64,000 bases of DNA from Spartobacteria bacterium (GTDB lineage Bacteria > Verrucomicrobiota > Verrucomicrobiia > Chthoniobacterales > UBA10450), in the NCBI GenBank assembly GCA_003134785.1, contig PLCN01000020.1, forward strand, positions 372,819 to 436,818, read 5' to 3'. Under the pieces are notes generated by a model. The model saw nothing but the letters and a program-made list of their open reading frames with translations. It did not search any database and was not told the DNA's origin. Position numbers and translations under genes: made by a program. Each line of letters begins with the position of its first letter. Position 1 is the first letter of the stretch. This document shows positions 26,604 to 64,000 of the stretch, in pieces.

Positions 26604-26619
26604 CCTTCGCGGCAGAGAA

Positions 26620-26704
26620 CGCCTAACGTCTAACGCCTAACGCCTAACGTCCAACGAAAGACTTTGGAATTAGGTGTTGGACGTTAGGCGTTGGGCGTTA
26701 GACG
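26620..26704. repeat. Heptamer array forming a 29-bp inverted repeat
   Basis: Tandem heptamers of the type AACGCCT/AACGTCT/AACGTCC. The left arm at 26627-26655 and the right arm at 26676-26704 are reverse complements at 28 of 29 positions, separated by 20 bases. It sits between the divergent starts of rnhC and mutY and contains four of the CGCCTAACG 9-mers found elsewhere in the window. Confidence 0.9.
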
Positions 26705-26717
26705 TTTCTTCATCTAC

Positions 26718-27756: not shown

Positions 27757-28935
27757 ATGATTGAGACACTACCGGATGCGCGCGGCCACTTTGGACCGTA
27801 TGGCGGGATGTTCGTGCCCGAGACACTCATGTCGGCGCTCGACGAGCTGACGGCGGAATACGAAAGGGCGAAGAATGATCCGGCGTTTCGGAGCGAGCTG
27901 GATGAATTGCTGCGGAACTTTGCCGGGCGCCCCACCCCGCTTTATCTGGCGGAACGGCTCCTGAAAGATCTCGGCGGCGCGAAGATTTATTTGAAACGGG
28001 AGGACCTTCTCCACACCGGCGCGCACAAAATCAACAACGCCCTCGGCCAAATTCTGCTCGCACGGCGGATGGGAAAAAAACGCATCATCGCGGAGACGGG
28101 CGCCGGCCAGCACGGTGTGGCCACGGCGACCGTGGCCGCGCGCTTCGGCTGCGAATGCATCATTTATATGGGCTCCGTCGACATGGAGCGGCAATCGCTC
28201 AATGTCGCGCGCATGCGTTTCCTCGGCGCGAAGGTCGTCGCCGTTACCGCAGGCCAGGCCACCCTGAAGGAAGCGATCAATGAGGCGATGCGCGATTGGG
28301 TCACGAACGTTCGCACCACCCATTATATTCTCGGCTCAGCGCTCGGTTCACACCCTTACCCGATGATGGTACGCGATTTTCATCGCGTAATCGGGATCGA
28401 AGCGCGCCGGCAAATTCTCGAACGAGAGGAACGACTGCCGGACCTGCTCGTCGCGTGTGTCGGCGGGGGTAGCAACGCGATCGGGCTTTTCCATCCGTTC
28501 TTGAACGACGAATCGGTGAAGATGATAGGCGTCGAAGCTGGCGGCGAAGGCATCCGCACCGGTAAACACGCCGCGCGTTTTCAAGGCGGCAGGCTGGGAG
28601 TTCTCCAAGGCACGAAAACATTTCTTCTTGCTAACGACGACGGTCAGATCGAACTGACGCATTCCGTTTCGGCGGGTCTCGACTACGCCGCGGTTGGTCC
28701 GGAGCACAGTTATCTCCGTGACGCCGGCCGGATCGAATACGATTACGCGACCGACGACGAAGCGCTCGCCGCTTTCCGTACACTCGCGGAAACCGAAGGC
28801 ATCATTCCCGCTCTGGAAACCGCGCACGCCATTGCGCACGTGATTAAGATCGCACCGGCCATGCCGCCCGATAAACTCATCATCATCAATTGCTCGGGAC
28901 GAGGCGACAAAGACGCCGGCCATTTTGGAATTTAG
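27757..28935 (+). CDS. trpB: Tryptophan synthase beta subunit
   Basis: 392 residues, normal length. It joins indole and serine with PLP. The PLP lysine is in [28 protein letters not shown] N-terminus, [29 protein letters not shown] and [10 protein letters not shown] confirm TrpB1. trpA is not next to it. The last codons (FGI and the TAG stop) lie inside a heptamer repeat arm, 28921-28952, which brackets the following gene. Confidence 0.96.
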
Positions 28936-28952
28936 ATTTTGGATTTTGGATT
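28921..28952. repeat. Left inverted heptamer arm of the IVS-type gene cassette
   Basis: The reverse complement of this arm matches 29323-29354 at 30 of 32 positions, 22 of them in a row. The unit is AAAATCC/AAAATCT. The arm includes the trpB stop codon. Confidence 0.9.
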
Positions 28953-28962
28953 AAAAGAAAAG

Positions 28963-28974
28963 ATGCCCGGGCAT
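28963..28974. repeat. 12-bp perfect palindrome at the start of the IVS-type gene
   Basis: ATGCCCGGGCAT is its own reverse complement and runs into the ATG at 28973. It could mask the ribosome binding site or serve as an operator; both are guesses. Confidence 0.5.
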
Positions 28975-29350
28975 GGACGAGCAGCAATTTAAGCAGCGGA
29001 CAAAAGCCATTGCCTTGCGTGTGATCAAACTGATTGGCGCCCTGCCGAGAGGCCGGGCAGAGGACGTTCTGGCGCGTCAGTTGATGCGATCTGCCACTTC
29101 GATCGGCGCAAATTATCGTGCAGCTTGTCGTGGCCGCTCTGCAGCTGACATGATCGCGCGGCTTTCAGTCGTTGAAGAGGAAGCCGACGAAGCAATCTAT
29201 TGGATCGAGTTGCTAACTGAATCCGATTACGTTCCCGCGAAGAAGGTTGAACCCCTGAGGAACGAAATTCACGAAATTGTCTCGATGACGGTCGCCTCGA
29301 TCAAAACGCTGCGATCACGCGCAATCCAAAATCCAAAATCTAAAATCTAA
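28973..29350 (+). CDS. Four-helix-bundle protein of the 23S rRNA intervening-sequence type
   Basis: 125 residues. It matches the S23/IVS four-helix-bundle family: an N-terminal QRTKAIALRVIKLIGALPRG, the signature LMRSATSIGANYRAACRGRS, ADMIARLSVVEEEADEAIYW and LRNEIHEIVSMTVASIKTL. Homologues are encoded in insertions in bacterial 23S rRNA and are related to the Avd protein of diversity-generating retroelements; they bind nucleic acid as pentamers. Here the gene is outside rRNA. It is flanked by inverted heptamer arms, and its last residues (NPKSKI) are encoded by the right arm. It separates trpB from yicC. Confidence 0.9.
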   Translation: MDEQQFKQRTKAIALRVIKLIGALPRGRAEDVLARQLMRSATSIGANYRAACRGRSAADMIARLSVVEEEADEAIYWIELLTESDYVPAKKVEPLRNEIHEIVSMTVASIKTLRSRAIQNPKSKI

Positions 29351-29354
29351 AATG
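29323..29354. repeat. Right inverted heptamer arm of the IVS-type gene cassette
   Basis: Tandem AATCCAA/AATCTAA heptamers. The arm encodes the C-terminus of the IVS-type protein and ends exactly on the ATG of yicC (29352-29354). Confidence 0.9.
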
Positions 29355-30227
29355 CGCAGCATGACCGGTTATGGCCGTGGTGAAGCCGATCACGGCGGGA
29401 CGAAATTCAGCGTCGAGTTGAATTCGGTGAATCGGAAGCAAAGCGACATCGTCATGAATCTTCCGCGTGATCTCACCGAGTTGGAGCCGCGTATCCGACA
29501 AGCCATCAATGAAAAAATTTCACGTGGCCGCTTGAATGTGGTGGTCGCGTTGCACGAAGGCGCAAACAGCTCGCACAAGCTTGCGCTCGATACTGCGCTG
29601 GCCCGCTCCTACCACGAAGCGATGCTCACGCTGCAAAAGGAATTGAGCGCACCCGGTGAAATCACCATCGGCACAATTTTGCAGGCGCCGGGCGTGATGC
29701 GTTCGCCGGAACACAGCGTCAATGCCGACGAAGTCTGGCCGGTGGTGCAGCGGGCCTTGGTGGCGGCGTTAAGCGAGCTGATCAAAATGCGCGAGCGTGA
29801 AGGTAAACATCTCGCGAAGGATTTGATCCATCGCTTGAAAGTCTTGCGCAAAGAGCTCAAGGAGATCCGCGCCTTATATCCTGAAGTCGTGAAGAAATAT
29901 CGAGGGGCGTTGGTCGAGCGCATTGAGAAGTCGGGTATCAATCTCCCGATCGAGGATGAACGATTGCTGAAAGAAATCACTTTCTTCGCCGATCGCTCCG
30001 ACATCTCGGAAGAATTGACGCGGCTGGAAAGTCACCTCGCCCAGTTTGCGCATCATCTTCGCGAGAACGAGCCTGTCGGCCGCACCCTCGAATTCATCAC
30101 GCAGGAGATTTTCCGGGAGCTGAATACGCTGGGCGCGAAATCGAACGACGCCGGCATTTCCCAACATGTCGTGGCCTGCAAATCGGAATTGGAAAAAATC
30201 CGCGAGCAAATCCAAAACCTTGAGTAA
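29352..30227 (+). CDS. yicC: YicC-family endoribonuclease
   Basis: 291 residues. It begins MRSMTGYGRGEA and has VELNSVNRKQSDIVMNLPRD, both typical of YicC N-terminal domains. The C-terminal DUF1732 region has VGRTLEFITQEIFRELNTLG and KSNDAGISQHVVACKSELEK. YicC-type proteins degrade small RNAs and sometimes sit next to gmk, as here. The start codon is the last three bases of the heptamer arm. Its stop overlaps the start of gmk. Confidence 0.93.
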   Translation: MRSMTGYGRGEADHGGTKFSVELNSVNRKQSDIVMNLPRDLTELEPRIRQAINEKISRGRLNVVVALHEGANSSHKLALDTALARSYHEAMLTLQKELSAPGEITIGTILQAPGVMRSPEHSVNADEVWPVVQRALVAALSELIKMREREGKHLAKDLIHRLKVLRKELKEIRALYPEVVKKYRGALVERIEKSGINLPIEDERLLKEITFFADRSDISEELTRLESHLAQFAHHLRENEPVGRTLEFITQEIFRELNTLGAKSNDAGISQHVVACKSELEKIREQIQNLE

Positions 30228-30838: not shown

Positions 30839-31426
30839 ATGGCCAGCAATCCAAAATCCAAAATCCAAAATCCAAAATGCGTTGTGCTCGGCGTCACGGG
30901 TTCCATCGCTGCCTACAAATCCGCCGAGCTGGCCAGCCTGCTCGTGAAGCAAGGCCATGACGTTTTCGTCGTGATGACGCGCGATGCAATCGAGTTCATC
31001 ACGCCGCTCACGTTGCAAACTCTTTCCAAGAATCCAGTCACCACGAGTTTCTTCGATGAAAAAGAAAACTGGCGGCCGGGACATATCGAGTTGGCCGATC
31101 GCGCGAATCTTCTCCTCATCGCGCCCGCGACCGCGAATGTCGTCGCTGAGCTCGCGCACGGACTGGCCGGTCATCCTCTCGCCGCCATCGCGCTCGCGAC
31201 TCGCGCGCCAATTCTAATGGCACCAGCGATGAATGGAAAAATGTGGGAGCACGCTGCCACGCAGAAAAATGTGGAGACCTTGAAAGCGCGCGGCGTCGAG
31301 TTCATCGGGCCGGAAGAAGGAATGCTGGCGTGCGGATACGAGGGCGTCGGCCGTTTGTGGAAAGTGGATGACATCGCTTTCCGCGCGGAGTTTTTGCTGG
31401 CGCGCCAGGATAATTTGATCGCGTGA
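30839..31426 (+). CDS. coaC: Phosphopantothenoylcysteine decarboxylase
   Basis: 195 residues, an HFCD flavoprotein that makes 4'-phosphopantetheine in CoA synthesis. It has [17 protein letters not shown], the catalytic His in [29 protein letters not shown] and the active-site Cys in [13 protein letters not shown]. Residues 4-13 ([10 protein letters not shown]) come from four AATCCAA heptamers at 30848-30879, so an alternative start is GTG at 30884, right after the repeat. The decarboxylase and the ligase are separate genes here, overlapping by four bases. Confidence 0.9.
30848..30879 (+). repeat. Four AATCCAA heptamers in the 5' end of coaC
   Basis: Four exact copies of AATCCAA followed by AATG. 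Same family as the arms at 28921-28952 and 29323-29354. Read in frame they give NPKSKIQ repeats. Confidence 0.9.
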
Positions 31427-33619: not shown

Positions 33620-35070
33620 TGCCGCTTCGATTCTTTAATACTTACTCGCGCGCGCTCGAGGAATTTCATCCGCTCGATCCAACGGGACGCGAAGTGAAGA
33701 TGTACACGTGCGGGCCGACGGTTTACAGCCATGCGCACATTGGAAATTTCCGCGCGTATCTTTTCGAAGATTTGTTGCAGCGACATCTCGAACTGCGCGA
33801 GTTCAAGGTGCATCGCGTGATGAACATCACGGATGTGGACGATAAAACGATCCTGGGCTCGCGAAGCGCGGGCGTTCCGCTGGCGGAATTTACCGCGCCC
33901 TTCAAGCAGGCGTTCTTCGAAGACCTCGACACTCTTCGGATCGAGCGCGCTGATTCTTTTCCCGAAGCGACGGATCCGCGCCAGATCGCGGCCATGATCG
34001 AGATGATCAAGACGCTGATGGCGCGCGATCTCGTGTACCAAGCGGACGACAAATCAGTTTATTATCGGATCAACAAATTTCCGGAGTATGGCCACCTCGC
34101 GCATTTCGATTTGTCGGAACTGCGTTCGACCGGAAGGGTGAAGAGCGACGAATACGACAAGGAACACGTCGGCGATTTCGCACTCTGGAAAGCTTGGGAC
34201 GAAGCTGATGGGCCGGTGAAATGGGAAAGTCCGTGGGGGCCCGGCCGGCCGGGATGGCACATCGAGTGCAGCGCGATGGCAACGCAGCTTCTCGGCGAGC
34301 AGCTCGATATTCATTGTGGAGGAGTGGACAACATCTTTCCGCATCACGAAGCGGAGATCGCGCAGACGGAGGGATGCACCGGAAAGAAATTTGTTCGCTA
34401 TTGGATGCACTGCGCGCACCTGATGGTCGACGGGCAGAAGATGTCGAAGTCGCTCGGGAATTTCTACACGTTGCGCGACGTGCTCGCGAAAGGCTACAGC
34501 GGACGCGAGGTGCGCTATGCGCTGATGCGGGTGCATTATCGCGCGCCGCTGAATTTCACCTGGGAAGGAATGGAGGAATCGCGGGAGGCGTTGCGCAGGA
34601 TTGATGATTGGCTGGCGCGGCTGCGGGCCAAAGCCGAAGAAGATAACGTCCAACGTCCAACTCCGAAAGCGTTCGCGAGCGGGGCGTCCAACATCCAACG
34701 TCCAACGGAAGAGGGATCGGGGTTCGAAGACGCCTTGGATGATGATCTCAACATTTCGGGTGCGCTCGGTGTTTTGTTCGAGACGATTCGCGAAACGAAT
34801 CGAGCGCTCGATTTGGGCATGCTCGATCCAAATGCTGCGAGTTCGTGGCTCCAATGGTGGCAGCGGATCGACCGCGTTCTGGCGATCAGTGGTGAAGAGA
34901 CGGCCGCGCTGTCGGCCGAGATTTCGGCGATCGCCGAAGCACGCGTGCAGGCGAGGCTTGCAAAGGATTGGCGAAAAAGTGATGAATTGCGCGACGAACT
35001 CGCCGCGAAAGGTTGGGAGGCCCGCGATACGAAGGACGGGCAGAAGATCACACGGCGCGACGGAGTTTAG
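33619..35070 (+). CDS. cysS: Cysteinyl-tRNA synthetase with repeat-encoded insertion
   Basis: 483 residues. It charges tRNA-Cys. The Zn/HIGH region is MYTCGPTVYSHAHIGNFRAY, the KMSKS loop is QKMSKSLGNFYT, and the other Zn ligands lie in IECSAMA and FPHHEAEIAQTE. Between the catalytic core and the DALRD-type helical domain (FEDALDDDLNIS) lies an insertion of about 30 residues rich in Gln, Pro and Thr. It is encoded by AACGTCC heptamers at 34645-34707 in two clusters. The frame stays open, so the enzyme is probably functional. Confidence 0.94.
   Translation: MPLRFFNTYSRALEEFHPLDPTGREVKMYTCGPTVYSHAHIGNFRAYLFEDLLQRHLELREFKVHRVMNITDVDDKTILGSRSAGVPLAEFTAPFKQAFFEDLDTLRIERADSFPEATDPRQIAAMIEMIKTLMARDLVYQADDKSVYYRINKFPEYGHLAHFDLSELRSTGRVKSDEYDKEHVGDFALWKAWDEADGPVKWESPWGPGRPGWHIECSAMATQLLGEQLDIHCGGVDNIFPHHEAEIAQTEGCTGKKFVRYWMHCAHLMVDGQKMSKSLGNFYTLRDVLAKGYSGREVRYALMRVHYRAPLNFTWEGMEESREALRRIDDWLARLRAKAEEDNVQRPTPKAFASGASNIQRPTEEGSGFEDALDDDLNISGALGVLFETIRETNRALDLGMLDPNAASSWLQWWQRIDRVLAISGEETAALSAEISAIAEARVQARLAKDWRKSDELRDELAAKGWEARDTKDGQKITRRDGV
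34645..34707 (+). repeat. Heptamer clusters inside cysS
   Basis: AACGTCC-type heptamers at 34645-34662 and 34685-34707, with a non-repeat spacer. Same degenerate family as 26620-26704. They encode NVQRPT and NIQRPT. Confidence 0.85.
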
Positions 35071-61688: not shown

Positions 61689-64000
61689 GGGGTGATTGTT
61701 CTCGACTGTTCGTGGCGCGGGTTTACTCAATTCCACCTTGTCGCTCACCATTTGAATCTTCGCGTCCTGTTCTTTGAGACGCGCAGTGAAATCTTTTTGC
61801 TGCTGCGCCGCCGTAGCTTTCAACTGGGTGACGGTAACTTCCAATTCCTCAACTTTTTTGTACTGTTTGAGGAACTCGTTGAGCAACATCGCGTTCACCG
61901 CTTCATAGCGCACGGTGAAGACTTTCCCTTCAGCGTCGCGAGCTACCAGATCGGGGTTCACCTTTTCCACTTCCTCGGCCACGAGGCCGAACTGCGGGAT
62001 GCCCTTGGGATCAAACTCACGCTTGTAGCGGAAGGTCACTGGTTTCAGCGAGAGGATTGCTTCGCTCGCCTTGTCCATGGGCTTGATCGCGTCCTTGAAA
62101 CGCTTGGAAGAAACTACCGTGCCTAGCTGACCGTTGGAATCAACAATCACTGGTACGCCACTTGCCACAATGACCCCGCTAATGCCGGCGACGAAAGTAA
62201 CTGTCTGCTGCCCCCCGCCGATGCGGATGGTGCTCGATTCGCCACCAACACCTGCGTTGCCGATGTCGATGTTGTTACTGCCCGTGGTCAACGCGCCGCC
62301 GGCGTTCACACCGATTGCAATATTGTCCTCGCCGGTATTGTTAAAGAGCGCCGAATAACCATCGGCCGTGTTGTTGGAGCCGGCTGTGTTGAAATAGAGC
62401 GCTTGTAAACCATTGGCCGTGTTGTTGGAGCCGCTTGCGTTGCTAAAGAGCGCCTCGCTACCGCTGGCCGTGTTGTAGGTGCCGAATGTGTTGCTCTGGA
62501 GCGCTTGGTAACCATTGGCCGTATTGAAGTCTTCATTGTTGTTTTGGAGCGCTTGGTAACCATTGGCCGTGTTGTTGGAGCCATTGTTGTTTTGGAGCGC
62601 TTCAAAACCGTTAGCCGTGTTGTTGTTGCCACTCGTATTTTCCAAGAGAGCCTGAAAACCGGTGCCTGTGTTGTAATTACCGGTTATGTTATTATTCATC
62701 GAATTTCGGCCGAGAGCGGTGTTGCCAGTACCGTTTGTATTACTGGAGAGCGCATAGGCACCAAACGCCGCGTTGTCGCCTGCCGTGTCGCTATAAAGCG
62801 CTTGCAAACCAACGGCTGTGTCGAAGCCTCTAGCCGTGCCGCTATAGAGGGCTTGATAACCCACAGCTGTGTTGCCTTGGCCAATGGTGTTGTTGAAGAG
62901 CGCTTGAGAACCAACCGCTGTGTTAGGTACATCGCCATCAGTCGTGTTGCTAAAAAGTGCCTGATAACCAACCGCCGTGTTGTCGGACGCAGTTGTGAGT
63001 TGTGATAAGGCCTGGTCACCCATTGCTGAGTTATGGGTTCCCGCAGTGAGGCTGACGAGAGCACTATTTCCCTCAGCCGTGTTGCCGTTGCCCAAGTCTC
63101 CATCCACCACTGGCGCAGCGGGACCAGTCGGGCCGATCGGGCCATCCGCACCAGTAGCGCCAGTCGCACCGTTCGTTCCATCGGTTCCATTCGTTCCGTT
63201 TGTGCCGTTTGTGCCGTTTGTTCCGTCAGTGCCATTGGCACCTGTCGGACCAGTCGCACCGGTCGGGCCTTGCAAGCTGCTCGCACTGCCAGTGCCGAGT
63301 TGGCCGTTCGCGTCGATGAACACGGGATTACCGCTGCTCTCATCGACTCCGTTTATGCCGGCGATGAACGTAGCGGTCTGCACTGCTGGGTGGCCGATGC
63401 GGATCGTATTGGACTCGCCCGCAACATCGCTGGAAGAACCAAGGTCGTTGCTCCAGTTGCCGATGTCAATATTAGCATCGCCCGTGGTGAGGTTGACACC
63501 AGCAGTAAAACCCAAGGCGACGTTGAAGGAGCCGGTTGTGTTGCTAATGAGCGCGTGAAAACCGTTGGCCGTATTTTTGTCGCCAGTGTTGTAAGCGAGC
63601 ACTTCAAAACCGTTGGCCGTATTGAAGGAGCCGGTTGTGTTGCTATAGAGCGCAAACTTACCGTTGGCCGTATTTTTGTTGCCGGTTGTGTTGAGAAAGA
63701 GCGCACCAACACCATTGGCCGTGTTGTCGGCACCGGTGAGGTTGCTATAGAGCGCTTGGTAACCATTAGCCGTGTTGTTGGCACCGGTTGTGTTGAAGTA
63801 GAGCGCCTGATAACCGTCGGCCGTGTTGTTGATCCCACCGTTTGGGCCATCAACACTCGAAAGTGCGCCTGTTCCTTCAGCGGTGTTACCATTGCCCAAG
63901 TCTCCATCCACGACTGGCGCAGCGGGACCAGTCGGGCCGATCGGGCCATCCGCACCAGTGGCGCCAGTCGCACCATCGGTTCCATTCGTTCCGTTTGTGC
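61686..64000 (-). CDS. Repetitive collagen-like fibre protein with S74 chaperone domain, 3' part (5' end outside window)
   Basis: At least 771 residues; the frame is open to the window edge. Two similar modules are seen, 804 bases apart. Each begins with collagen-like G-T-N/G-A-T/G-P triplets, a constant PAAPVVDGDLGNGNTAEG, then many 16-19-residue units of the type NTANGYQALYSNTTG, and ends in TIRIG...TFIAGI...GQLGT. The C-terminus has the S74 signature SSKRFKDAIKPMD and FRYKREFDPKGIPQFGLVAE, then a coiled coil. S74 domains trim themselves off after trimerisation of fibres. It is probably a surface or tail-like fibre. Confidence 0.9.
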   Translation of the reverse strand, partial: TNGTNGTDGATGATGADGPIGPTGPAAPVVDGDLGNGNTAEGTGALSSVDGPNGGINNTADGYQALYFNTTGANNTANGYQALYSNLTGADNTANGVGALFLNTTGNKNTANGKFALYSNTTGSFNTANGFEVLAYNTGDKNTANGFHALISNTTGSFNVALGFTAGVNLTTGDANIDIGNWSNDLGSSSDVAGESNTIRIGHPAVQTATFIAGINGVDESSGNPVFIDANGQLGTGSASSLQGPTGATGPTGANGTDGTNGTNGTNGTNGTDGTNGATGATGADGPIGPTGPAAPVVDGDLGNGNTAEGNSALVSLTAGTHNSAMGDQALSQLTTASDNTAVGYQALFSNTTDGDVPNTAVGSQALFNNTIGQGNTAVGYQALYSGTARGFDTAVGLQALYSDTAGDNAAFGAYALSSNTNGTGNTALGRNSMNNNITGNYNTGTGFQALLENTSGNNNTANGFEALQNNNGSNNTANGYQALQNNNEDFNTANGYQALQSNTFGTYNTASGSEALFSNASGSNNTANGLQALYFNTAGSNNTADGYSALFNNTGEDNIAIGVNAGGALTTGSNNIDIGNAGVGGESSTIRIGGGQQTVTFVAGISGVIVASGVPVIVDSNGQLGTVVSSKRFKDAIKPMDKASEAILSLKPVTFRYKREFDPKGIPQFGLVAEEVEKVNPDLVARDAEGKVFTVRYEAVNAMLLNEFLKQYKKVEELEVTVTQLKATAAQQQKDFTARLKEQDAKIQMVSDKVELSKPAPRTVENNHP

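Follow-up and report, generated by a model that had tools for sequence, protein, structure and literature searches.

An S23-family gene between inverted heptamer arms: evidence for a probable mobile cassette at gene junctions

Genes of the S23 family are annotated as 'four helix bundle protein' or '23S rRNA intervening sequence protein', and the locus described here raises the question of what such a gene is doing, bracketed by inverted repeats, between two protein genes. It lies in a 64,000-nt window (the whole stretch of DNA that was analysed, from contig PLCN01000020.1 of a Spartobacteria bacterium), in which an Rfam scan at the gathering threshold found no rRNA and one tRNA only. A sequence-only reading had proposed that the gene and its arms form a cassette fitted between codons and laid out as in the insertions of 23S rRNA. 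The locus is composed as follows.

27757..28935, plus strand: trpB, the upstream neighbour (TIGR00263, E 2.1e-185)
28921..28952, plus strand: left arm, CATTTTGGAATTTAGATTTTGGATTTTGGATT, holding the trpB stop (28933-28935); tandem period 7 over 28922-28952
28973..29350, plus strand: S23-family (23S rRNA IVS-type) four-helix-bundle gene, 125 aa (PF05635, TIGR02436, AlphaFold2, Foldseek)
29323..29354, plus strand: right arm, the reverse complement of the left arm, coding for the S23 C-terminus and ending on the yicC ATG
29352..30227, plus strand: yicC, the downstream neighbour (TIGR00255, E 2.8e-75)

The two arms, of 32 nt each with 370 nt between them, are built of AAAATCC heptamers (GATTTTG on the sense strand of the left arm) and frame the S23 gene exactly between trpB and yicC. 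As had been described, they are complementary at 30 of 32 positions (94%), with mismatches at arm positions 7 and 10 only, leaving 22 consecutive pairs. The fit of the boundary to stop and start codons also held: the trpB stop lies inside the left arm, and the right arm encodes the end of the S23 protein (AIQNPKSKI) and closes on the yicC ATG at 29352. The likeness to 23S rRNA insertions stood for the S23 gene within complementary arms but not for the site, which is outside any 23S rRNA gene. Inverted pairs of this geometry scored at least 15 at 8 of 7474 overlapping placements in 464 kb of this genome; these represent 6 distinct places, among which the window cassette has the top score (27.0). 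In 4.39 Mb there are 12 exact copies of the 13-mer AAAATCCAAAATC (in 9 arrays, counted by hand) and none of its reversed control; it is therefore no common repeat. Just before the left arm (window 28900-28935) 12 nt are missing, trpB ending here in KDAGHFGI where a congener reads KDVSQAATHFGF.

The S23 open reading frame matched PF05635 with 62.2 bits (curated cut-off 33.8, E 6e-17) and TIGR02436 with 87.8 bits (curated cut-off 24, E 5.2e-25). Its AlphaFold2 model has four helices (pLDDT 92.8), and the best Foldseek match was 2rld (E 5.8e-6), a solved S23 member titled as of unknown function, followed by 2gsc (Xcc0516, E 3e-3). Each of these entries lists five chains (A-E), and the title of the 2gsc paper mentions five four-helix bundles; by analogy, a putative five-fold S23 ring would fit five heptamers. 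Same-site orthologues of the S23 gene gave a median pN/pS of 0.13 and a maximum of 0.20 (28 pairs; dS is saturated in 11, and in one pair flank homology is confined to a single side). The gene is under purifying selection.

We then asked how often S23 genes elsewhere carry such arms. This 4.39-Mb genome has 11 PF05635 matches, 10 of them above the cut-off, and arms scoring at least 15 were found at 8 of the 11 loci, with L013, L014 and L016 at 11.5 to 14. The units at these flanks are AAAATCC, GGAATKC, CCGGAAA, GGAAGGC, ATTTCAG, AACGTCC, GAAGGAA and a GTTGAGG-like unit present at two neighbouring copies; L015 has a six-letter unit and the fragment L023 an eight-letter one. AAAATCC as a fixed signature was ruled out by these other units at other S23 genes of the same genome. 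When this genome was taken together with 38 relatives, 32 of the 39 had S23 genes, as did 220 of 288 sampled genomes of the phylum, this one again included. When named genomes were scanned with the window's clade, the best 80 of the matches listed came from many phyla, and 61 of these best 80 had arms scoring at least 15 (against 886 of 6320 mispaired flanks, a control inflated by shared motifs).

Loci were then pooled from this genome (11), from 29 relatives (the best match of each), from the named-genome scan (the best 80 listed), from the phylum sample (the 30 best) and from other places in relatives (60, hand-chosen). These 210 loci yielded 208 distinct proteins and 206 loci with enough flank, a set of best-scoring loci and no random draw. 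Inverted arms scored at least 15 in 157 of the 206 and less in 49. As controls, windows displaced by 900 nt within these loci reached that score in 2 of 390 cases and mispaired flanks in 216 of 6000. Among the 157 armed loci, 137 had 7 as their best period; mean identity was 0.56 at lag 7 and 0.22 to 0.32 at the other lags from 4 to 12. Flanks of yicC, taken as an other-gene control, never scored above 11 (30 loci). Outside S23 flanks period-7 arrays were rare: at a score that 10 of 22 S23 flanks (160 nt each) attained, a 400-kb sample contained 9. The arms are linked to S23-type genes and are not placed at random (157/206 versus 2/390). An S23 cassette between inverted arms is a general architecture, and both its anatomy and its coupling to the S23 protein are firm.

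The association with AAAATCC itself did not survive: the arms are inverted tandem heptamers whose sequence tends to follow the protein clade and the strand across phyla, with no fixed heptamer. Protein identity correlated with unit similarity (Mantel r 0.40; null sd 0.028, largest of 2000 permutations 0.092, in a test that treats related genomes as if independent), and r fell to 0.09 when units were read on the opposite strand. Unit similarity was 0.51 below 30% protein identity, 0.47 at 30-40%, the level of random heptamers (0.47), and 0.94 above 80%. The largest protein cluster (88 loci, spanning about 12-14 hand-assigned phylum labels) has a GAWTNNN-like unit, with the G at 97% and the A at 99%. 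Loci of the same protein cluster under different phylum labels had a unit similarity of 0.631 (2669 pairs; labels of L103-L182 assigned by hand, other relatives counted as Verrucomicrobia by assumption), and different protein clusters in the same genome had 0.498 (86 pairs). Within the set, the seven proteins closest to that of the window cassette (60-64% identical) come from Acidobacteria, Chloroflexi, Planctomycetes, Cyanobacteria and Verrucomicrobia and carry GATTTTN-like units, mixed with others in two of them (L104 and L105). A column-by-column analysis of unit specificity was set aside, being probably dominated by shared descent.

Polarity is mostly fixed, GA occurring in 119 of 137 left-arm units and TC in 33 of 137; exceptions include the L022 type, with AACGTCC on the left, and both Planktothrix plasmid cassettes, with AATC-type left arms. 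These regularities bear on a neutral origin, in which replication slippage would make heptamer microsatellites that lie near S23 genes by chance. Many bacteria have an excess of heptameric repeats, for which slippage is a proposed origin (PMC4692102), yet as a whole account this is contradicted by the inverted pairing and fits neither the largely constant polarity nor a unit tied to protein clade across phyla. We regard it as scarcely credible, although slippage may lengthen the arms.

If the arms and gene form a unit that comes and goes, as had been suggested, close relatives should differ in it, and they do. The cassette before yicC is absent from 7/7 congeners (by eye, as are the junctions described next). 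In four of them the trpB stop lies directly on or overlaps the yicC start, one has trpB and a different short insert before yicC, and two have a mutY-like end instead of trpB (in G002 and G003, which we take to be mutY) with a trace of AAAATCC-like sequence. All seven lack the S23 gene here, and the gene without arms was never seen at these junctions. The empty site of congener G007, CATTTTGGATTCTAAATG, prompted the idea that the arms are copied from the target. We set this aside because relatives of this S23 protein in other phyla have like units; the 10-mer is present in only one of the four clean empty sites. The only Pfam match of the cassette open reading frame at E 0.001 was PF05635, with no transposase domain, and no transposase, recombinase or target-site duplication was identified for the cassette. 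When the four congeners' clean empty sites were compared by eye, the arms were seen to overlap the ends of both genes, so that no clear duplication can be called.

At other sites of the genus, orthologous cassettes are kept at one place while their arms change on both sides. At four sites the cassette has been swapped, one genome's S23 being 41-61% identical to that of the others and carrying other arms; L234 shares the other genomes' unit in its outermost arm, AAGTAGAAATTAC, and has a new inner arm (by eye). S23 genes of the L016 type (L016, L045, L046, L221, L226 and L268-L270, in 7 genomes) occupy sites with no detected flank homology. Their arms, where seen, are GAAGGAA/GAATTAA-like, and L045 and L046 score only 10 and 11. 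At the L016 site itself, congener L275 keeps both arms around a short loop with no gene (by eye), five other congeners have no such arm pair and one gave no match. For L226 no clean empty site was found, the matches being mostly to an unrelated short repeat. That repeat (L226 query 334-391), which bears no relation to the heptamers, gave 42 matches in G004 and 73 in G006, often in inverted pairs about 15-40 nt apart, and looks REP-like.

Plasmids also carry cassettes. In Gloeocapsa sp. PCC 7428 (L293) and Candidatus Chlorohelix the two neighbours are DUF1156 and Swt1-HEPN genes, in two Planktothrix they are drmD and a PglX or MmeI gene, and in Treponema saccharophilum a transporter gene and a DUF4832 gene. 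The plasmid regions examined (5 of 26 records) have seven-letter arms scoring 18 to 29, with the opposite polarity in Planktothrix. The neighbours in L293, L294, L295 and L296 (DUF1156/Swt1-HEPN; drmD, of DISARM, with PglX or MmeI) are likely anti-phage defence operons. Taken together, presence, absence and exchange, as read from these genomes, make it well supported that the cassette is a mobile element.

Arrays and hairpins of the same build also occur with no S23 gene, two of them close to the cassette.

26618..26706, no strand assigned: S23-less inverted heptamer hairpin of AACGCCT/AACGTCC units with a 22-nt loop, the cassette build without the gene
30848..30878, no strand assigned: solo AAAATCC array, whose only nearby inverted partner is the left arm of the cassette

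The solo array marks the beginning of the following gene, whether this is ORF 30839-31426 or starts at an ATG at the array's end. Four-fold GAWTNNN gave 57 matches in this genome (41 arrays, counted by hand) and the reversed control 1. Of 20 array regions fetched, 8 have an inverted downstream partner scoring at least 13, GA coming first in each; the loops are 21 to 46 nt in seven of these hairpins and about 150 nt in the eighth. The hairpin L311 is the window cassette's twin, with a 28-nt loop replacing the gene. None of the nine solo arrays of the 400-kb sample has an inverted partner within 2.5 kb, and an automatic census of 464 kb returned one period-7 hairpin, that of the window; gene-less hairpins are therefore few. 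Arrays occur inside genes too, as with the AACGTCC heptamers within a coding frame, presumably cysS, at window 34645-34726. Near position 701 of L298 and L306, different arrays in opposite orientation share the same place in long open reading frames that seem paralogous by eye. Degenerate 51-nt tandem repeats lie at window 62338-63831.

Across the 288 genomes, at least 5 GAWTNNN-array matches were found in 114 of 220 S23-bearing and 4 of 68 S23-less genomes, a comparison that treats related genomes as if independent. The reversed control increases with S23 number as well (any match in 81/220 versus 4/68; Spearman 0.37 against 0.45). Arrays with no S23 gene were seen in G043 (146), G124 (23), G319 (18) and G098 (6), and 8 or more S23 genes with no GAWT array in G244, G160, G248 and G290. 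G225, G317, G260 and G242 have 237 to 868 array matches and only 1 or 2 S23 genes.

If S23 were a regulator of array-bearing mRNAs or promoters, its own included, with autoregulatory arms and the solo arrays as its regulon, one would expect solo arrays built of the same types of unit to stand where genes start or end, as they do in this genome. Purifying selection on the gene agrees with such a role, as do the TAACTGA heptamers before start codons for which translational control has been suggested (PMC4679880). Autoregulation, however, needs no inverted arms on both sides of a gene, and the presence or absence and same-site swaps of cassettes in close relatives fit a mobile unit better, so we consider regulation rather improbable.

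Direction and position are biased as well. Among 97 of the 157 loci (8 without flank and 52 ambiguous ones left out), the S23 gene is sense with both neighbours in 77 and antisense to both in 3, with 13 and 4 mixed cases. The left arm starts between -10 and +20 nt from the upstream stop in 99 of the 157 loci (median -2; a fitting ORF was present at 145/157), and in 84 of 149 the first downstream start codon is at most 15 nt from the right arm, by a measure that favours near starts by construction. Selection among survivors can explain both biases, if an insert persists only when it is read through and leaves the two genes intact.

The sense bias would also be expected if the cassette were an RNA insert like the rRNA intervening sequences, in which the arms pair in the read-through mRNA, S23 is looped out and RNase III cuts the stem. 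The 23S IVS is an S23 gene within an RNase III-cut stem, and in that of Coxiella the 5' cut site carries GACAGAT heptamers in tandem (PMC4990558). In the window, the minimum free energy fold of the cassette RNA pairs the arms (z -4.28). Across loci, in-register arm identity was 0.887 compared with about 0.77 one unit off, partly by construction, since the aligner picks the register and so biases the test. In a fairer test, in which unit order was permuted at 83 loci, 35 loci exceeded at least 95% of the permutations (22 of them every one) and 5 were at or below the mean, which suggests that the two arms of one cassette are partly copies of each other. A selected RNA stem was tested through the mismatches and found no support, because selected pairing should give an excess of G.U, and none was seen: over the 157 loci there were 137 G.U, 144 A.C and 378 transversion mismatches, the transversions being as common as G.U and A.C together, and G.U was commoner in 50 loci versus 59 for A.C. 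Of the earlier proposal that the unit folds into one stem with the gene as its loop, the predicted folding stands but selection for the stem is not supported. We consider the RNA insert unlikely, if the most serious of the alternatives; with no preference for G.U, the arms are better read as predicted protein-binding ends that are kept alike on both sides.

Sense orientation is shared by one further alternative, in which S23 would help a reverse transcriptase as Avd does, a group II or DGR-type enzyme copying the sense RNA into new sites. Avd, of the DGR ribonucleoprotein, is a weaker Foldseek match of the S23 model (4dwl and 8ub7; E 0.05-0.1, query-normalised TM 0.72-0.73). The reverse-transcriptase domain PF00078 was found in 12/39 genomes only, this one included, whose single weak match (C24:51943-52419) lies about 320 kb from the window (start C24:372819), and there was none in the S23-rich G020, G006, G023, G001 and G003. 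A reverse-transcriptase partner was rejected as not general, and a helper of this kind is very improbable.

With somewhat better than even confidence, we read the cassette as a likely copy of a selfish element that is widespread and whose protein, in a predicted five-fold ring, would bind the arms of its own cassette. Heptamer binding by the S23 protein and the way the element moves are what we infer. Every subunit would recognise a single heptamer, which makes five units or 35 bp for the pentamer, and the ring would hold the two inverted ends together, like a transposon end-binding protein. The gene would be transcribed by read-through from the upstream gene and would thus need no promoter of its own. 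Host enzymes would break and join the strands, since no catalytic fold is known for the S23 protein. This genome's short hairpins without S23 would be non-autonomous relatives or remains.

A bolder claim goes beyond this selfish-element reading, and we advance it only tentatively, at clearly less than even confidence. It holds that such cassettes form a new class of bacterial mobile element without a catalytic protein, in which the pentamer recognises heptamers by a variable code (GAnnnnn in the main clade) and every protein lineage has a heptamer of its own. Sense cassettes would settle on stop codons inside operons, gene-less hairpins would be satellites, and its footprints would be the heptamer repeats of Xanthomonas, Nostoc, Beggiatoaceae and the Coxiella IVS, which were described without being explained. 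If true, the 23S rRNA IVS would be one habitat of a general gene-junction element and no rRNA oddity. The arms give the S23 family a testable target, each protein being expected to recognise its own heptamer, and the link between S23 and heptamers could explain why heptameric repeats are common in some bacteria.

Several known systems resemble the cassette in part. In REPIN-RAYT systems a gene for a Y1 (HUH) transposase is framed by its own short palindromic repeats. The cassette shares with them gene-less hairpins of the flanking-type repeat elsewhere in the genome (8/20 regions; window 26618-26706), whereas the S23 cassette has no Y1 transposase (only PF05635) and its repeats are tandem heptamers. 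Avd of diversity-generating retroelements has the four-helix-bundle fold, and the likeness of PF05635 to it has already been published (PMC10053308); unlike those retroelements, the S23 cassette has no adjoining reverse transcriptase. S23 genes have also been noted in cas loci (18 genes; PMC3936711). The tandem 7-mers GGGAATC of Xanthomonas, GGGGATT of Nostoc and TAACTGA of Beggiatoaceae are mostly intergenic and some are inverted (PMC4692102, PMC4679880), while the arrays described here are tied to S23 genes; S23 has 0 occurrences in the available texts of those two papers. In the open-licence literature, we found no report linking S23 genes to heptamer arms in title or abstract, the nearest being the tandem heptamers in the 5' arm of the Coxiella IVS (PMC4990558). 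The 23S rRNA IVS of Coxiella and Leptospira is likewise an S23-family gene inside complementary arms, and that of Coxiella is similar in length (428 nt versus 434 here) with heptameric repeats in its 5' arm (PMC4990558). The window cassette differs in lying between protein genes and not in rRNA, and cassette arms, with no sign of selection for RNA pairing, are tandem heptamers that vary with the protein clade.
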